A stretch of DNA of 64,000 nt. Origin: Candidatus Tectimicrobiota bacterium. Lineage in GTDB: Bacteria > JACPUC01. Made by a program: the position numbers and the translations under genes. Positions 15,507 through 22,913 of this stretch are shown here, piece by piece. The notes beneath the pieces are model-generated. The model was given only the letters and a program-made list of their open reading frames with translations. It did not search any database and had not been told where the DNA came from. The stretch lies in NCBI GenBank assembly GCA_016192455.1, contig JACPUC010000015.1:1-64000 (forward strand), written 5' to 3'. How positions within the stretch are numbered: position 1 is the stretch's first letter; the number at the start of each line of letters is the position of its first letter.

Positions 15507-18191
15507 GTGGGACGAGATTCCCAAGCCAGCGCGCCGAAAGGAATTCGCGCCGCTCTTGCCGGCAAGACGCTGCTCGTCTCCGGCGCCACCGGTTTTCTCG
15601 GCAAGGCCCTGATCGAGAAGCTCCTCTTCGAAATACCCGCCATCAAGCGCATCTATCTCCTCATCCGGCCCCGAGGAGGCGACGTTCCAGCCCAGGCACG
15701 GCTCAAGGCGGACATCTTCTCGAGCCCCCTCTTCCAACGCCTGCGGACGCGGGAAGAGGGGCGGGAAGGGTTCGAGGCTTTCCTGGGCGGAAAGGTTGTC
15801 GCCGTTGAAGGGGACCTCATGCAGGTGGGCCTCGGCTTGGCGGACGAGGACCTGCGGCGGCTCGCCAAGGAGATCGACCTCATCATCAACAGCGCCGCCA
15901 CCGTGCAGTTCGATGAACGCCTTGATCTGGCGCTGAACTTGAACACCCTGGGACCGCAGCGCTTGCTGGCGTTGGCCAAGAGCTGCCTGCGGCGTCCCCT
16001 CCTGGTGCAGGTCTCCACCTGCTACGTCGGGGGGAAGCTCGCCGGTCCCATCCCGGAGCAGGTGCTCGAGCAGGAGCAGACGATCAGCCACCTGCGGGGT
16101 GATGCCAACCTGCCGCCATTCAACGTCGATGAAGAGATCCGCCACCTCTTCCGGACCATTCGGCAGATCATCCAGGAGAGCCATCATCCGGAACGTCGAG
16201 TGGAGATCGTGGCCCTTGCCCGTGAGCAGCTCCTCAACGGGCAGGCGGCAAGCAAGCGGCAGGGCTCCCGGGCGGCGAATGGCGGGCAGCGGCTGGCCGA
16301 AGTCTCCTTCGAGGCGGCGCGCGGCCAGTGGATCGCCAGGCGCCTCGTGAGCGAGGGGATGAGCCGCGCCCAGCGCTATGGCTGGAACGACACCTACACC
16401 TTCACCAAGGCGCTGGGGGAGAAGCTCCTCGTCCGCGACCACGGCGCCGTGCCGCTCATCATCCTGCGGCCCTCCATCATCGAGAGCAGCCTGCGCGAGC
16501 CGGAGGCGGGGTGGATCGAAGGCTACCGCATGGCCGACCCGATGATCGCCGCGTATGGCCTCGGCAAGCTGCGCAAGTTCTCCAGCCGCCGCGAGGTGGT
16601 GCTCGACGTCATCCCCCTCGATGTTGTGGTGAACACGCTCATCGCCGCCATGGCTCACCCGCCGGCGGCGGGGCACGTCGTCTATCAGACGGCGTCCGGC
16701 AGCCGCGTCCCCCTCACCATTGGGAGGCTGGCCGACTACATCTTCGAGTACTTCCGCGACCATCCGATGCGAACTCGCAAGGGCCAGCCCATCCGCGTCA
16801 AACCCTGGCGATTGCAGCCGCAGGAGGAGTTTCAGCGCCACCTCTACTGGCGCTCCTTCCTGCCGGTGAAGATGCTGCACCGCGTGCTGCGCTCGCTGGC
16901 CTGGCTCCCCTTCGCGCCGTCGCTCCTCGAGAAGGTGGGGAAGCTACGCAACGCCCTCGAGCAGCTCCGGCACCTCAGCACGATTTACGCTCCCTACACC
17001 AACCATAGCCCGCTCTTCGAGACGAAAGCCACGGAGAAGCTCTTCGATCTGCTGCGCGAGGAAGACCGGCAGCGCTTCAACTTCAGCCTTGCTGATCTCG
17101 ACTGGGAGCACTACGTCAAGGAGGTGCACATTCCCGGCCTCATCCGCAACGTCATCCAGGCCGAGCGCCCGCCCCGGCTGACGGCGATCTCCCCGGTTCC
17201 CCTGGCTGACGAGGCGACGCTGGCGGCCTGGGGCGAAGCGCCGATCGCGGAGATGATCGCCCCCGCGAGCATGGTCGATCCCCTCACCGAGGCGGAGTTC
17301 ACCCTCTGGAATGAGACGGATGCGCTCGAGGAGGACGTTGCCGGCATTGGCATGGGCGAGGCTCGCGACCAAGGGGCCGCGGCGGCAACAACCCTTGAGG
17401 AGCTGGAGCAGGCCGAGGCAAGCAGGGCCGCGCCGCTGCCGACCGAGCGGCCGTTGCGCCTGCGGCGCCGCCTGGCGATCCCCGCCGTGCCCGCCATCCT
17501 CGCGCCGCAGCGTCGCTCTCCCCTCACCTTCATGCAGGTGGCCTTCCGCGACTTCATCGGGGTGCTGGGGCTAATTGCCAACCGCGTCTATTTCCGCTCG
17601 GAAGTGACGGGGCTCGATCACCTGCCCACGGATGGCGCCTTCATCGTCGCCTCCAACCACTGCAGCCATCTCGACACCACGGCTGTCATCCTGTCGATGG
17701 GACCCTACGCTCTGCGGGCCTGCGTCGTGGGGGCGCGTGACTACTTCTTCAACACCCGTCTCAAGGCCTGGTTCTTCGGCAGTCTGTTGAAAGCCATCCC
17801 CTTCGATCGGCAGGGGAACTTCATCGCCGGCATCCGCCAGTGCCGCGAAGCGCTCATGAATCGCACCCCGGTGCTCATCTACCCGGAAGGGACCCGCTCC
17901 CTCACCGGCATGCTGCAGCCGTTCAAGCTCGGGGTGGGGGTGCTGGCCTACGAGCTCAAGGTTCCCGTTGTTCCCGCCTACGTCAGCGGCACCTACCAGG
18001 CGCTGCCGAAAGGGTCATGGTTCCCCCGTCCCTACAAGGTTCGGGTGCGCTTCGGTCCTCCCCTCACCCCCTCCGCCGCGACGGCCGAGGATGACCGGGA
18101 CGGCTCGCCCTACACGGCCTACGTGACCCTCGTGCGCCGGCTGCGCCAGGCCATTGAAGAGCTCCGCGATGCCAGCGCCACGCCGGCATGA
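15507..18191 (+). CDS. Fatty acyl-CoA reductase fused to a PlsC-type acyltransferase
   Basis: The 894-residue protein is a two-domain fusion. Residues about 15-580 form an extended short-chain-dehydrogenase reductase of the fatty-acyl-CoA-reductase (male-sterility) type. It has the NAD(P) site GATGFLG at 26-32 and an active-site Y297-x3-K301. Residues about 665-890 form a PlsC-type glycerolphosphate acyltransferase, with N717-H718-x4-D723 and PEGTR at 793-797. The first domain would reduce acyl-CoA or acyl-ACP to fatty alcohol or aldehyde; the second would acylate a glycerol(phosphate)-like acceptor. Start is GTG 15507 with AGAGGG about eight bases upstream. It overlaps the HAD gene, suggesting a lipid operon. 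The real lipid product is unknown. Confidence 0.88.
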   Translation: MGRDSQASAPKGIRAALAGKTLLVSGATGFLGKALIEKLLFEIPAIKRIYLLIRPRGGDVPAQARLKADIFSSPLFQRLRTREEGREGFEAFLGGKVVAVEGDLMQVGLGLADEDLRRLAKEIDLIINSAATVQFDERLDLALNLNTLGPQRLLALAKSCLRRPLLVQVSTCYVGGKLAGPIPEQVLEQEQTISHLRGDANLPPFNVDEEIRHLFRTIRQIIQESHHPERRVEIVALAREQLLNGQAASKRQGSRAANGGQRLAEVSFEAARGQWIARRLVSEGMSRAQRYGWNDTYTFTKALGEKLLVRDHGAVPLIILRPSIIESSLREPEAGWIEGYRMADPMIAAYGLGKLRKFSSRREVVLDVIPLDVVVNTLIAAMAHPPAAGHVVYQTASGSRVPLTIGRLADYIFEYFRDHPMRTRKGQPIRVKPWRLQPQEEFQRHLYWRSFLPVKMLHRVLRSLAWLPFAPSLLEKVGKLRNALEQLRHLSTIYAPYTNHSPLFETKATEKLFDLLREEDRQRFNFSLADLDWEHYVKEVHIPGLIRNVIQAERPPRLTAISPVPLADEATLAAWGEAPIAEMIAPASMVDPLTEAEFTLWNETDALEEDVAGIGMGEARDQGAAAATTLEELEQAEASRAAPLPTERPLRLRRRLAIPAVPAILAPQRRSPLTFMQVAFRDFIGVLGLIANRVYFRSEVTGLDHLPTDGAFIVASNHCSHLDTTAVILSMGPYALRACVVGARDYFFNTRLKAWFFGSLLKAIPFDRQGNFIAGIRQCREALMNRTPVLIYPEGTRSLTGMLQPFKLGVGVLAYELKVPVVPAYVSGTYQALPKGSWFPRPYKVRVRFGPPLTPSAATAEDDRDGSPYTAYVTLVRRLRQAIEELRDASATPA

Positions 18192-18900
18192 GGTCGTCCT
18201 GAACGCCACCTCGCGGCGATCAGCCTGCCTGCAGATGGCCTTCTTCGATGTGGATGGCACCTGCGTCGATACCACCATCCTGCACTACTATGTCTGGTTC
18301 GTTCGCGATCGCGTTGCGCCGCCCTGGCGCTGGCTGCGGATCGGCAAGCTCCTCTCCCTCGTCCCGTACTACTGGGTTCTTGACCAGGTCTCCCGGACCG
18401 CCTTTAGCATCGCCTTCTACCGCGCCTATGCCGGTATCGCGGCGGCGGAGCTGGAGGAGTGGGGGCGAACCACGCTGCGCCAGCGACTCCTGCCGCATGT
18501 CTACCCGGGGGCGAGAGCTGAGATCAGCGCCCTGGGGAGAGATGGGGTGCCGATCACCTTCGTGACCGGCTCGTTGCCGGCGGTGGTGGAGCCGGTGCGG
18601 CAGCTTGCCGCGCAGGAGGGGTCGCCGGCGGAGGTGCTGGGGAGCGTGCTCGCGGTGCGGCGGGGCGTCTTCACGGGGGACCTGGAGGGGGCTCCCCTGG
18701 CGAGCGAGGCGAAGCGCCGGCGCCTCGAGTCCCTCGCCACGGAGCGTGGCATCAGCCTCGAGCAGTGCGCCGCCTATGGCGACTCCATGGCTGATCTGCC
18801 GATGCTCGAGGCGGTCGGTCAGCCGGTGGCCGCGAACCCCACCCCGTCCCTGCGTCGCATTGCCCGGCGGCGCGGCTGGACGATTTGCGATTGGGCCTAG
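18169..18900 (+). CDS. HAD superfamily IB phosphatase (PSPase-like)
   Basis: Residues 25-31 hold FFDVDGT, so the nucleophile and acid/base aspartates D27 and D29 of haloacid-dehalogenase phosphatases are intact. GDSMADLPML near residue 204 is the C-terminal metal-binding motif. The length (243 residues) and the cap pattern fit subfamily IB, which includes phosphoserine phosphatase and lipid-linked phosphatases. I chose ATG 18169, which overlaps the end of the acyl-CoA reductase gene by 23 bases; a TTG at 18154 is in the same frame. IB phosphatases are often fused or adjacent to PlsC acyltransferases, so a lysophospholipid or glycerol-phosphate-like substrate is reasonable. Confidence 0.85.
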   Translation: MPAPRRHEVVLNATSRRSACLQMAFFDVDGTCVDTTILHYYVWFVRDRVAPPWRWLRIGKLLSLVPYYWVLDQVSRTAFSIAFYRAYAGIAAAELEEWGRTTLRQRLLPHVYPGARAEISALGRDGVPITFVTGSLPAVVEPVRQLAAQEGSPAEVLGSVLAVRRGVFTGDLEGAPLASEAKRRRLESLATERGISLEQCAAYGDSMADLPMLEAVGQPVAANPTPSLRRIARRRGWTICDWA

Positions 18901-18937
18901 GTTGTGGTTGGGCGGAGCTTGCGGGACGGCCGGACCT

Positions 18938-20173
18938 ATGCTGGCGATCCAGTACCTGAAGAGCATCCCGCGCTTCCTCGCGGTGCGTGGGCTGGGGACG
19001 TTCTGGAAGGGGGCGGCGACGAGCCGATTCGGCTGCGCGCAGCTCCGCGAGATCGCCCCGCCCCCCTTGCCGAACGAGCGCTGGCTGCGCCTGCGCCCTA
19101 TCCTCGCCGGCATCTGCGGCTCGGACCTGGCGACGATCACGGCGAGGAACACCCCGTACTTCTCGCCCCTCCTCTCCTACCCGTTCACCCTCGGCCATGA
19201 GCTGGTAGGGCGCGTCGAGGAGGTGGGGGCGGCGGTCGAGGGGGTGGCGAGGGGCGACAAGGTCCTCGTCGAGCCGGCGTTAAGCTGCGCGGTGCGGGGC
19301 ATCGAGCCGCCCTGCCCGATGTGCCAGGCCGGCCATGCCGCCTGCTGCCTGAACATCATGCACGGCGCCATCTCCCCCGGCATCCAGACCGGCTACTGCC
19401 GCGATACCGGGGGCGGCTGGAGCGAGTCCCTGGTGGTGCACGAGCGGCAGGTGCTGCGGGCCCCCGAGGAGACGCCGGACGAGGCGCTCGTGCTGGTGGA
19501 GCCTTTGAGCTGCGCGGTGCACGCCGCCCTGAAGGTCGCTTGCCCGGCGGCCGGCACGGCCCTGGTGCTGGGGTGCGGCGCCATCGGCTTGCTCCTCACC
19601 TTTGCGCTGCGCACCCTTGGGAATCCCGGCCGCATCATCGCGGTCCACCGCTACCCCCACCAGGCGGCGTTCGCCAGGGTCTTCGGCGCCGATTGCCTCG
19701 TCCAGGACGGTCCCGGGGTGGAGGAGGAGATCGCCGCGCTGACGCGCGCCGAGCGCCGCAAGCCGGAGATCGGCGGCAGCGTCTTCCTGGGCGGGGTGGA
19801 CGTGACCTACGATTGCGTCGGCTCCTCCGGCAGCCTCGACCAGGCCCTGCGCTACACGCGCGCGCTCGGGGCGGTTGCCGTGGTGGGCATGCCGGGGGTG
19901 CCGCGCGGCCTTGACTGGACGGCCATCTGGTACAAGGAGCTGCGCGTCGTCGGCACCTATGCGTACGGCCTTGAGGAGTACGCGGGTGAGCGCCTGCGCA
20001 CCTTCGAGCTGGCGGCCCGCCTGGCGCGCCGGCACGCCGCCAAGCTGGCGCCGCTCGTCGGGGCGCGCTACCCCCTGCGGGAGTTCCCGGCGGCCATTGC
20101 CTCGGCGCGCTTCAGCGGGCGGTCCGGCGTGGTGAAGACGGTCTTCGAGGTGACGCCGGAGGGGCGGCTGTAG
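18938..20173 (+). CDS. Zinc-dependent alcohol dehydrogenase (MDR family)
   Basis: The 411-residue protein has the catalytic-zinc ligands C60 (GICGSD) and H87-E88 (GHELVG). A structural-zinc cysteine group lies at C117, C126, C129, C136 and C137. The coenzyme fold has VLGCGAIGLL near residue 210. It is longer than typical 340-350-residue members, with extra sequence around the structural zinc loop. The family oxidises alcohols or polyols, or reduces aldehydes, with NAD(P). In this cluster it could act on a fatty alcohol/aldehyde or on a polar head-group polyol. I chose ATG 18938 because the frame upstream overlaps the HAD gene and has no family sequence. Confidence 0.9.
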   Translation: MLAIQYLKSIPRFLAVRGLGTFWKGAATSRFGCAQLREIAPPPLPNERWLRLRPILAGICGSDLATITARNTPYFSPLLSYPFTLGHELVGRVEEVGAAVEGVARGDKVLVEPALSCAVRGIEPPCPMCQAGHAACCLNIMHGAISPGIQTGYCRDTGGGWSESLVVHERQVLRAPEETPDEALVLVEPLSCAVHAALKVACPAAGTALVLGCGAIGLLLTFALRTLGNPGRIIAVHRYPHQAAFARVFGADCLVQDGPGVEEEIAALTRAERRKPEIGGSVFLGGVDVTYDCVGSSGSLDQALRYTRALGAVAVVGMPGVPRGLDWTAIWYKELRVVGTYAYGLEEYAGERLRTFELAARLARRHAAKLAPLVGARYPLREFPAAIASARFSGRSGVVKTVFEVTPEGRL

Positions 20174-20308
20174 GACGTTCCAGCCATGGCAGGGCGCTGC
20201 GGGCGGCCCTGGCAGAGGCGCCGGGAAGCGTTCGGTCGAGGAGACGTGGGCTCGTCCGCAGCGCCCCCGAAGTGAGCAAGGGATCGGAGCGGGAATCGAG
20301 GATCAGGG

Positions 20309-21922
20309 ATGCACGATGCCGCGCAGCAACGCGACCCGGAACGCGATCGCAACGGTCTTGTCTGGTACGTCGAGAAACCGAACCAAAAGTTTCTCTTCGC
20401 CTGCGGAGAGCGCTACGTTTGGGAGACCCTGCCACCCGGCACGCGCATCGTCGAGGCGCCGCCGTCGGTGCCGGGGCTTGCCGACCCGGACGCGGCGATC
20501 GAGGCGGCGCTGGAGCACCCCCTCGGCTGCGATCCCCTCTCGGCCCAGTTGCGGCCGGGGATGAAGGTGACCATCGCCTTCGACGACCTGTCGCTGCCGC
20601 TGCCGCCCATGCAGCGGCCCGACGTGCGCCAGCGCGTCATCGAGATCGTGCTGCGCAAGCTGGCCGCGGCCGGTATTGACGATATCCACCTCATCGTCGC
20701 CACCAGCCTTCACCGGCGCATGACCAAGGCCGAGCTGCAACACGCCCTGGGCCGCCGCATCGTGCGGGCGTTCTACCCGCATCGCCTTTACAACCACGAT
20801 GCGGAGAATCCGGACGGCATCGTCGCCCTCGGCAAGACCGAGCAGGGCGAGGTGGTGGAGTTGAACCGGCGGGCCGTCGAGTCGGACCTCCTGATCTACG
20901 TGAACATCAACCTCGTCTCCATGGACGGCGGCAACAAGTCGGTGCCCGTGGGCTTGGGAACCTACGCCAGCCTGCGCTTCCACCACAACGTGCACAGCCT
21001 CATGCAGTCGCGCTCTTTCATGGACCCGCGGCACTCCTACCTGCACCACTCCTGCGACCGCATGGGACGCGTGGTCGCCGAGCACGTCAAGATCTTCACC
21101 ATCGAAACGACCTTGAACGGCGACATGTTCCCCTGGTTCATGACCTTCCTCAACAAGACCGAGAAGCACTACACCGCCTTCGACCGCCTCTCCCTGCACG
21201 CCACCCGCGGCTTCCTCGACCACTCGCCCCTGGCGGTCAATCGCAGGCTCTTCCAGGCCATCAAGTCGCCCTACCAGCTCAGCGGCGTGCACGCCGGGGA
21301 GACGAACGCGGTGCACGCGAAGACAATGGAGCAGGTCTTCAAGCAGCACCTCGTGCGTGTCGAAGGCCAGGCGGACATCGTCGTCATGGGGTTGGCGCAC
21401 ATCTGTCCCTACAACGTCAACTCCATCATGAACCCCATCCTGGTCATGTGCCTGGGGCTGGGCTACATGTTCAACTTCTACCGCGGCCGGCCGCTGGGGC
21501 GGAAGGGTGGCGTGATGATCTTCCTGCATCCGGTGGAGTACAAGTTCAACGCCGTGCACCACCCCTCCTACATCGACTTCTTCGAGGAGGTGCTGACCGA
21601 GACGCAGGACTCCAGCGTCATCGAGGCGAAATACGAAGAGAGCTACGCGCGCAACCCCCGCTACCTCGAGGCGTATCGTTTCGGGCATGCCTACCACGGC
21701 GTGCACCCGTTCTACATGTGGTACTGGGGCACCCAGGGGCAGCGGCACTTCGCGCGCGTCATCTTCGTTAACCCCACCAGCCCACAGGCGGTGCGGCGCA
21801 TGGGGTTCGAGGCGGCGCCGTCGCTGCCGGCCGCCCTCGAGATGGCGCGCGACACGCTGGGGGCGAACGCCTCCATCACCTACCAGCGGGTGCCGCCGAT
21901 CTCGATGTGCGAGGTGGTCTGA
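20309..21922 (+). CDS. LarA-like protein (lactate racemase N-terminal domain, DUF2088)
   Basis: The 537-residue protein resembles LarA, the nickel-pincer lactate racemase, in its N-terminal half. The block IVATSLHRRMT (H135) corresponds to the H108 segment of Lactobacillus plantarum LarA. GGNKSVPVGL (K210) corresponds to the lysine that tethers the cofactor. H226 is 16 residues after the lysine, the spacing of the nickel ligand H200 after K184. The second acid/base histidine (H174 in LarA) is not where an ungapped comparison would put it. The C-terminal half is longer than in LarA. No larB, larC or larE is in the window. Substrate unknown; family members act on 2-hydroxy acids. Confidence 0.8.
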   Translation: MHDAAQQRDPERDRNGLVWYVEKPNQKFLFACGERYVWETLPPGTRIVEAPPSVPGLADPDAAIEAALEHPLGCDPLSAQLRPGMKVTIAFDDLSLPLPPMQRPDVRQRVIEIVLRKLAAAGIDDIHLIVATSLHRRMTKAELQHALGRRIVRAFYPHRLYNHDAENPDGIVALGKTEQGEVVELNRRAVESDLLIYVNINLVSMDGGNKSVPVGLGTYASLRFHHNVHSLMQSRSFMDPRHSYLHHSCDRMGRVVAEHVKIFTIETTLNGDMFPWFMTFLNKTEKHYTAFDRLSLHATRGFLDHSPLAVNRRLFQAIKSPYQLSGVHAGETNAVHAKTMEQVFKQHLVRVEGQADIVVMGLAHICPYNVNSIMNPILVMCLGLGYMFNFYRGRPLGRKGGVMIFLHPVEYKFNAVHHPSYIDFFEEVLTETQDSSVIEAKYEESYARNPRYLEAYRFGHAYHGVHPFYMWYWGTQGQRHFARVIFVNPTSPQAVRRMGFEAAPSLPAALEMARDTLGANASITYQRVPPISMCEVV

Positions 21923-21929
21923 GGAGCCG

Positions 21930-22913
21930 ATGAGGCCGCCGCTACCCGCGTTGAACCTGGCCGTCATCGTCAATCCCCGCTCCGGGGCGGGGAAGGGGCG
22001 GCGGCTTGCCGCGCGGCTGAGCGCCTGGTTGAAGCAGCAGGGGATTGTGGCGCCGTTCGCCCTCACCGAAGCGCCGGGCCACGGGCGCGCGCTGGCGGCG
22101 GGGTTCCTGAGAGAGGGCCACCGGCTCCTCATTGTCGTTGGCGGCGACGGCACGCTCCATGAGGTGGTGAATGCCATGGTGGCCGGGAGCGGTGGGCTTG
22201 CGAACGCCGCTCCGCCGCGCCAGCGACATGGCGTTGGCTCGATTGCGGTCAGCGCCGACGAACCCCCGCGCCCGCTGCTGGCGATCCTGCCGTGCGGCAA
22301 GGGGAACGACTTCGCCCGTGCCCTCGGCATCCCGACGCGCTGGGAAAGCTGGCTGGCGATGCTGCGGGCGGGATCGACGCGCGGCGTCGATCTGGGATGG
22401 GCCGGCGGGCGGGCCTTCACCACGGTTGCCGCGGTGGGGTTCGATGCCGAGGTGAGCGAGCGCGTCAACGCCGCCAGGCTGCGCGGCGCCGGCAGCATGC
22501 TCTACCTGCTCATGGCCCTGCGCCACCTGTTCCGCTACCAGCCGAAACTGCTGCGCCTGAGCGGCGATTTCGGCGTCTTCGAGGGTCGCGTCTTCCTCAC
22601 CGCCGTTGGCAACACGCCGCACTACGGCGGCGGCATGCGCATCACCCCCGGCGCCGACCCAGGGGACGGCGTCCTGGAGGTCTGCATCGTCGAGCCGATG
22701 CCGAAGCTGGCCGTGCTGCGCCTGCTGCCGAGCGTCTACACGGGCCGTCACGTCAGCCACCCGCGGGTGCGCTGCGAACGCACGCGCACCCTGCGCGTCG
22801 AAAGCCCTGAAGGGCCCCTCTGGCTGCACGCCGACGGCGAACCCCTCTGCCAAACCCCCGCCGCCATCGAGACCCTCCCGCGGGCCGTGCGGCTGCTCGT
22901 GCCGGCGCCGTAA
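21930..22913 (+). CDS. Diacylglycerol kinase family lipid kinase
   Basis: The 327-residue protein begins with a family opening, VIVNPRSGAGKG, and has the catalytic-loop motif GGDGT at residues 71-75 and the conserved CGKGNDFAR further on. These mark DAGK-catalytic-domain lipid kinases (DgkB/YegS/BmrU type) that phosphorylate diacylglycerol-like lipids or sphingosine-like alcohols. The segment between residues 83 and 112 is a low-complexity insertion. The ATG lies seven bases after the LarA-like stop, with GAGGAG overlapping that stop as ribosome-binding site. It is the last gene of the putative lipid operon and is followed by two hairpins. Confidence 0.9.
   Translation: MRPPLPALNLAVIVNPRSGAGKGRRLAARLSAWLKQQGIVAPFALTEAPGHGRALAAGFLREGHRLLIVVGGDGTLHEVVNAMVAGSGGLANAAPPRQRHGVGSIAVSADEPPRPLLAILPCGKGNDFARALGIPTRWESWLAMLRAGSTRGVDLGWAGGRAFTTVAAVGFDAEVSERVNAARLRGAGSMLYLLMALRHLFRYQPKLLRLSGDFGVFEGRVFLTAVGNTPHYGGGMRITPGADPGDGVLEVCIVEPMPKLAVLRLLPSVYTGRHVSHPRVRCERTRTLRVESPEGPLWLHADGEPLCQTPAAIETLPRAVRLLVPAP

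Follow-up and report, generated by a model that had tools for sequence, protein, structure and literature searches.

Among described systems, the closest to the locus analysed here is the elb operon of Myxococcus xanthus (elbA–elbE; MIBiG BGC0000871), which is associated with alkyl- and vinyl-ether lipids; in the review describing it, elbC is labelled as being of "unknown function" and no elbC mutant is reported (PMC9131029). The elb locus used here for comparison (L032) was assigned by gene content and order, not from the named M. xanthus record. In the elb layout, a LarA homologue occupies the ElbC position, between a HAD-IB phosphatase (ElbB) and ElbD, an enzyme that combines fatty acyl reductase (FAR), acyl-CoA synthetase (ACS), ACP, and acyltransferase (AT) domains. 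ElbD homologues are also present in Pontiella, in which ether lipids were not detected (PMC11868695). A second described system is the AGPS-type ether-lipid pathway (FAR1/GNPAT/AGPS; MXAN_1675–1676), in which FAR and acyltransferase domains are found in one protein, MXAN_1675 (PMC9131029).

The window, i.e., the whole 64,000-nucleotide stretch of the Candidatus Tectimicrobiota contig that was analysed, contains a five-gene operon on the + strand (15507–22913) in which all open reading frames are intact. The first gene (15507–18191; 894 aa) encodes a fatty acyl reductase (NAD_binding_4 and Sterile domains; motifs GATGFLG and YTFTK) fused to a PlsC/GNPAT-type acyltransferase (motifs NHCSHLD and PEGTRS). 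It is followed by genes encoding a HAD-IB phosphatase similar to SerB and histidinol phosphatase, the ElbB counterpart (18169–18900, ATG start at 18169; HAD-SF-IB-hyp1 above cut-off; DVDGT and GDSMAD), a zinc-dependent MDR dehydrogenase similar to threonine and polyol dehydrogenases (18938–20173; 411 aa; ADH_N/ADH_zinc_N; GICGSD, GHE, and a four-Cys lobe), a LarA homologue, the ElbC counterpart (20309–21922; 537 aa; Lar_N, NF052592), and a YegS/DgkB-type lipid kinase (21930–22913, ATG start at 21930; DAGK_cat/YegS_C and TIGR00147 above cut-off; GGDGT). The Pfam and NCBIfam matches and the catalytic motifs legible in the translations confirm the five gene families named in a preliminary description of this DNA, as well as its one-strand arrangement with gaps of at most about 135 bases: the phosphatase gene overlaps the end of the FAR-AT gene by 23 bases, and the subsequent gaps are 37, 135, and 7 bases. 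Scanning for promoters and terminators gave no promoter-like site before 15507, and terminator signals did not exceed chance.

Homology and gene content indicate that this operon is a relative of the myxobacterial elb cluster. Both comprise a HAD-IB phosphatase, a LarA-like protein, and FAR and AT domains in a same-strand operon, and in the window the ElbB and ElbC counterparts adjoin the FAR-AT gene. The two LarA homologues are 48% identical; identities to L032 are 38% for the AT domain, 31% for the HAD-IB phosphatase, and 27.5% for the FAR domain. The preliminary description knew of no described pathway combining these genes, but they make up a variant of the elb operon with ElbB, ElbC, and ElbD homologues (PMC9131029). 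However, the FAR-AT protein lacks the ACS and ACP domains of ElbD, and the operon lacks both SDR proteins of elb (ElbA and ElbE), carrying the zinc dehydrogenase and the lipid kinase instead; no ElbE-type SDR was found in the operon and no SDRe match in 80 related loci. The two versions are united in two Planctomycetota loci (L053 and L102), bridging operons in which an ElbD-type FAR-ACS-AT gene is found together with the HAD, dehydrogenase, LarA, and kinase genes.

These 80 loci were selected solely by similarity of the LarA-like protein, and neighbouring genes were scored thereafter. A HAD gene was found next to the LarA-like gene in 70 of the 80 loci, an AT gene in 67, a dehydrogenase gene in 66, and a FAR gene in 63, many of the loci scored as missing a neighbour being contig ends; the more distant flank (472 kb in total) contained four HAD, two AT, one dehydrogenase, and no FAR matches. 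The clustering is therefore not due to chance, and the proposal that these genes form a lipid pathway is supported; the lack of co-conservation that would have refuted it was not observed. The LarA-type cluster was found in Actinomycetota (including Frankia loci L081 and L086), Planctomycetota, Chloroflexota, and other groups, with the kinase in the equivalent position in four Planctomycetota loci (L052, L053, L067, and L102). Domain fusions differ among lineages (FAR-AT, FAR-HAD, or FAR-ACS-ACP-AT), suggesting that the proteins of the set are tied together. In the class of genome G028, 112 of the 120 genomes encode an ElbC-type protein (match at E < 1e-150), with FAR downstream in 30/30 and HAD upstream in 29/30 of the loci read. 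Against an elb-type reading stand the Pontiella result and the surroundings of the four LarA homologues nearest in sequence (L046–L049), where either the kinase is the sole cluster gene in the vicinity or there is none. In the phylogeny, all cluster-type LarA sequences form one group (SH-aLRT 96), and the window protein groups with Zixibacteria, Poribacteria, one Acidobacteria, and two Planctomycetota sequences; outgroup branches are very long, and the phylogeny was therefore given little weight.

The LarA homologue scored 809.8 bits against the LarAH14/15/16 profile NF052592 (cut-off 740; residues 18–536 on profile positions 2–519), and is thus a member of this family; its AlphaFold model (pLDDT 93.9) matches holo LarA of Streptococcus plurextorum (9q3k) with a VIA Z of 41.9. 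In an alignment of 87 family members, the cofactor-holding residues of the LarA superfamily are kept, i.e., the Lys bound through the thioamide (K210; 86/87), the Ni-binding His (H226; 87/87), and the Asp contacting the ribose (D93; 85/87), as is the first catalytic His (H135, equivalent to H108 of LarA; 87/87). At the position of the second catalytic His (H174 of LarA), the aligned family has a four-residue deletion; the carboxylate-binding R75 is replaced by Leu, Val, or Ile in 84/87 members and the carboxylate-binding K298 by Asn in 87/87, while Q295 is replaced by Ser in 82/87. Judged by these positions, the cofactor site is preserved and the substrate site is altered, with the residue set of canonical 2-hydroxy-acid racemases (H108 and H174, R75/K298) incomplete. 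The LarAH14 enzyme of Frankia is reported to have none of seven 2-hydroxy-acid activities tested (PMC7583248); this, together with the loss of H174, R75, and K298, makes hydroxy-acid racemisation unlikely. We accordingly rejected a 2-hydroxy-acid racemase on the active-site residues, and the earlier suggestion that hydroxy-acid stereochemistry is determined by the LarA-like protein does not hold up. It appears more likely that the protein uses nickel for a hydride step on a lipid intermediate that is not a carboxylate; the altered active site suggests a nickel-dependent step, possibly a new one, in bacterial lipid synthesis.

The genome containing the window encodes LarB, LarC1, LarC2, and LarE of nickel-pincer cofactor biosynthesis, each over its NCBIfam cut-off, and its single Lar_N protein is the LarA homologue of the operon; the Lar fold, the cofactor residues, and these cofactor genes are those expected for a member of the LarA superfamily. 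LarC is also present in 22 of the 24 genomes in which the LarA-like protein is the only Lar_N protein, and in five loci (L080, L098, L099, L104, and L116; actinobacterial) larB, larC, and larE are all located within about 5 kb of the LarA gene. Plain co-occurrence of LarC was dropped as proof because it does not discriminate in the class of G028, where LarC is found in 119/120 genomes, including five without a LarA match; since LarC occurs also without a LarA protein, LarC alone is weak evidence.

We consider it probable, with some reserve, that the operon is a biosynthetic unit of the elb type whose product is a glycerolipid derived from a fatty alcohol, with an alkyl-ether lipid as the likeliest candidate, and in which the LarA homologue would be a nickel-pincer nucleotide (NPN)-dependent enzyme other than a 2-hydroxy-acid racemase. 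The sequences show the intact genes, the homology and gene order shared with elb-type operons, the presence of the cofactor genes, and a LarA homologue with a preserved cofactor site and an altered substrate site; the product (alkyl-ether or other fatty-alcohol-derived glycerolipid), the LarA reaction, and the steps that follow are inference. The FAR domain would convert an activated acyl chain to an aldehyde or alcohol, and the AT domain, which is PlsC-type (PF01553) with a 1-acyl-glycerol-3-phosphate acyltransferase as its nearest solved chain, would acylate a glycerol- or glycerone-phosphate intermediate. The HAD-IB phosphatase may remove the backbone phosphate and the lipid kinase restore it, while the zinc dehydrogenase may switch the backbone between its secondary alcohol and ketone forms, as the SDR ElbE may do in myxobacteria. 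The LarA homologue with NPN would transfer hydride on a hydroxyl or carbonyl group of a substrate lacking an alpha-carboxylate, its step thus being part of the backbone or ether chemistry of the lipid rather than a racemisation of 2-hydroxy acids.

A pathway to 1,2-diol or 2-hydroxy-acyl lipids, in which FAR would produce a 1,2-diol by reducing a 2-hydroxy-acyl chain, with the 2-hydroxy acid racemised by the LarA-like protein, is improbable. In its favour, LarA enzymes racemise 2-hydroxy acids, a diol is in keeping with FAR and the zinc dehydrogenase, and the cluster is present in Chloroflexota, some relatives of which are known to make diol lipids; however, the family-wide active-site losses and the lack of 2-hydroxy-acid racemase activity of the Frankia enzyme in seven assays speak against the racemase step, and a glycerol-phosphate backbone is indicated by the kinase, the phosphatase, and the PlsC-type AT. 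We regard as rather more doubtful a glycolipid operon, in which the LarA-like protein would act on a sugar or polyol head group (a carbohydrate phosphate). This is suggested by the polyol/threonine dehydrogenase-like protein and by the nearest solved structures, the single-His LarA proteins of S. plurextorum (9q3k) and Blautia wexlerae (9q3j; Z of 41.9 and 38.6, respectively; rmsd 2.1–2.3), for which a role in carbohydrate metabolism has been proposed from gene context (PMC12611868). They share with the window protein the Ni-binding His, the cofactor Lys, the first catalytic His, and the absence of the second; however, they are only 23–26% identical to it, have Asn for H174 and Lys for R75 in place of the deletion and the Leu/Val/Ile of the window family, and lie in glycolytic contexts rather than a lipid operon, and the conserved set in the window has no glycosyltransferase or sugar-activating gene. 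Least probable is synthesis of wax esters or other neutral lipids, in which FAR would yield a fatty alcohol that the AT esterifies, the other genes being accessory: wax-ester synthesis needs at minimum FAR and an acyltransferase, and among solved structures the best relative of the FAR is a fatty acyl-CoA reductase (7eoz), but we rejected this pathway on the PlsC-type AT, which is not of the WS/DGAT type, and the HAD, dehydrogenase, and LarA genes, unneeded for wax synthesis, are conserved as strongly as FAR.

We put forward only tentatively, and think it rather doubtful, that within the preferred elb-type glycerolipid pathway the LarA homologue fills the gap in the elb route, either forming the ether in place of AGPS or serving as the backbone-redox enzyme, by NPN-dependent hidden redox. 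It could transiently oxidise the alcohol at C2 of a glycerol(-phosphate) ester or, alternatively, handle hydride for an acyl/alcohol pair, giving the ether. Unlike the AGPS-type pathway, which shares with the window the single FAR-acyltransferase protein, the operon includes no alkylglycerone-phosphate synthase (AGPS), and none was found in the genome, which is 88% complete, making this absence provisional; three FAD-oxidase_C matches (GlcD-like, GlcE-like, and one frame without a family match) were rejected as AGPS.

From Myxococcota to Actinomycetota, Planctomycetota, and Chloroflexota, the protein at the ElbC position belongs to the nickel-pincer family and has a remodelled substrate site. 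Through this LarA–elb link, the orphan LarAH14–16 enzymes could gain a substrate class, and an orphan lipid step, the ether bond made without AGPS in the elb route, a candidate enzyme; the link further suggests that a membrane-lipid pathway depends on nickel and that the gene could serve to recognise potential producers of ether lipids. If the ether-forming or backbone-redox role is true, NPN would for the first time be seen to act outside 2-hydroxy-acid isomerisation and, to our knowledge, bacterial membrane-lipid synthesis would have its first nickel enzyme. A literature search for LarA or nickel-pincer together with ether lipids found no paper joining them, supplementary gene-context tables aside, and the available parts of PMC7583248 and PMC11770544 do not state a link of the LarAH14/15/16 family to a lipid operon. 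A further point against the elb-type reading is that the genome containing the window also encodes a BadF/DUF2229 protein of the PlsA/Ger kind, which could make ethers independently.

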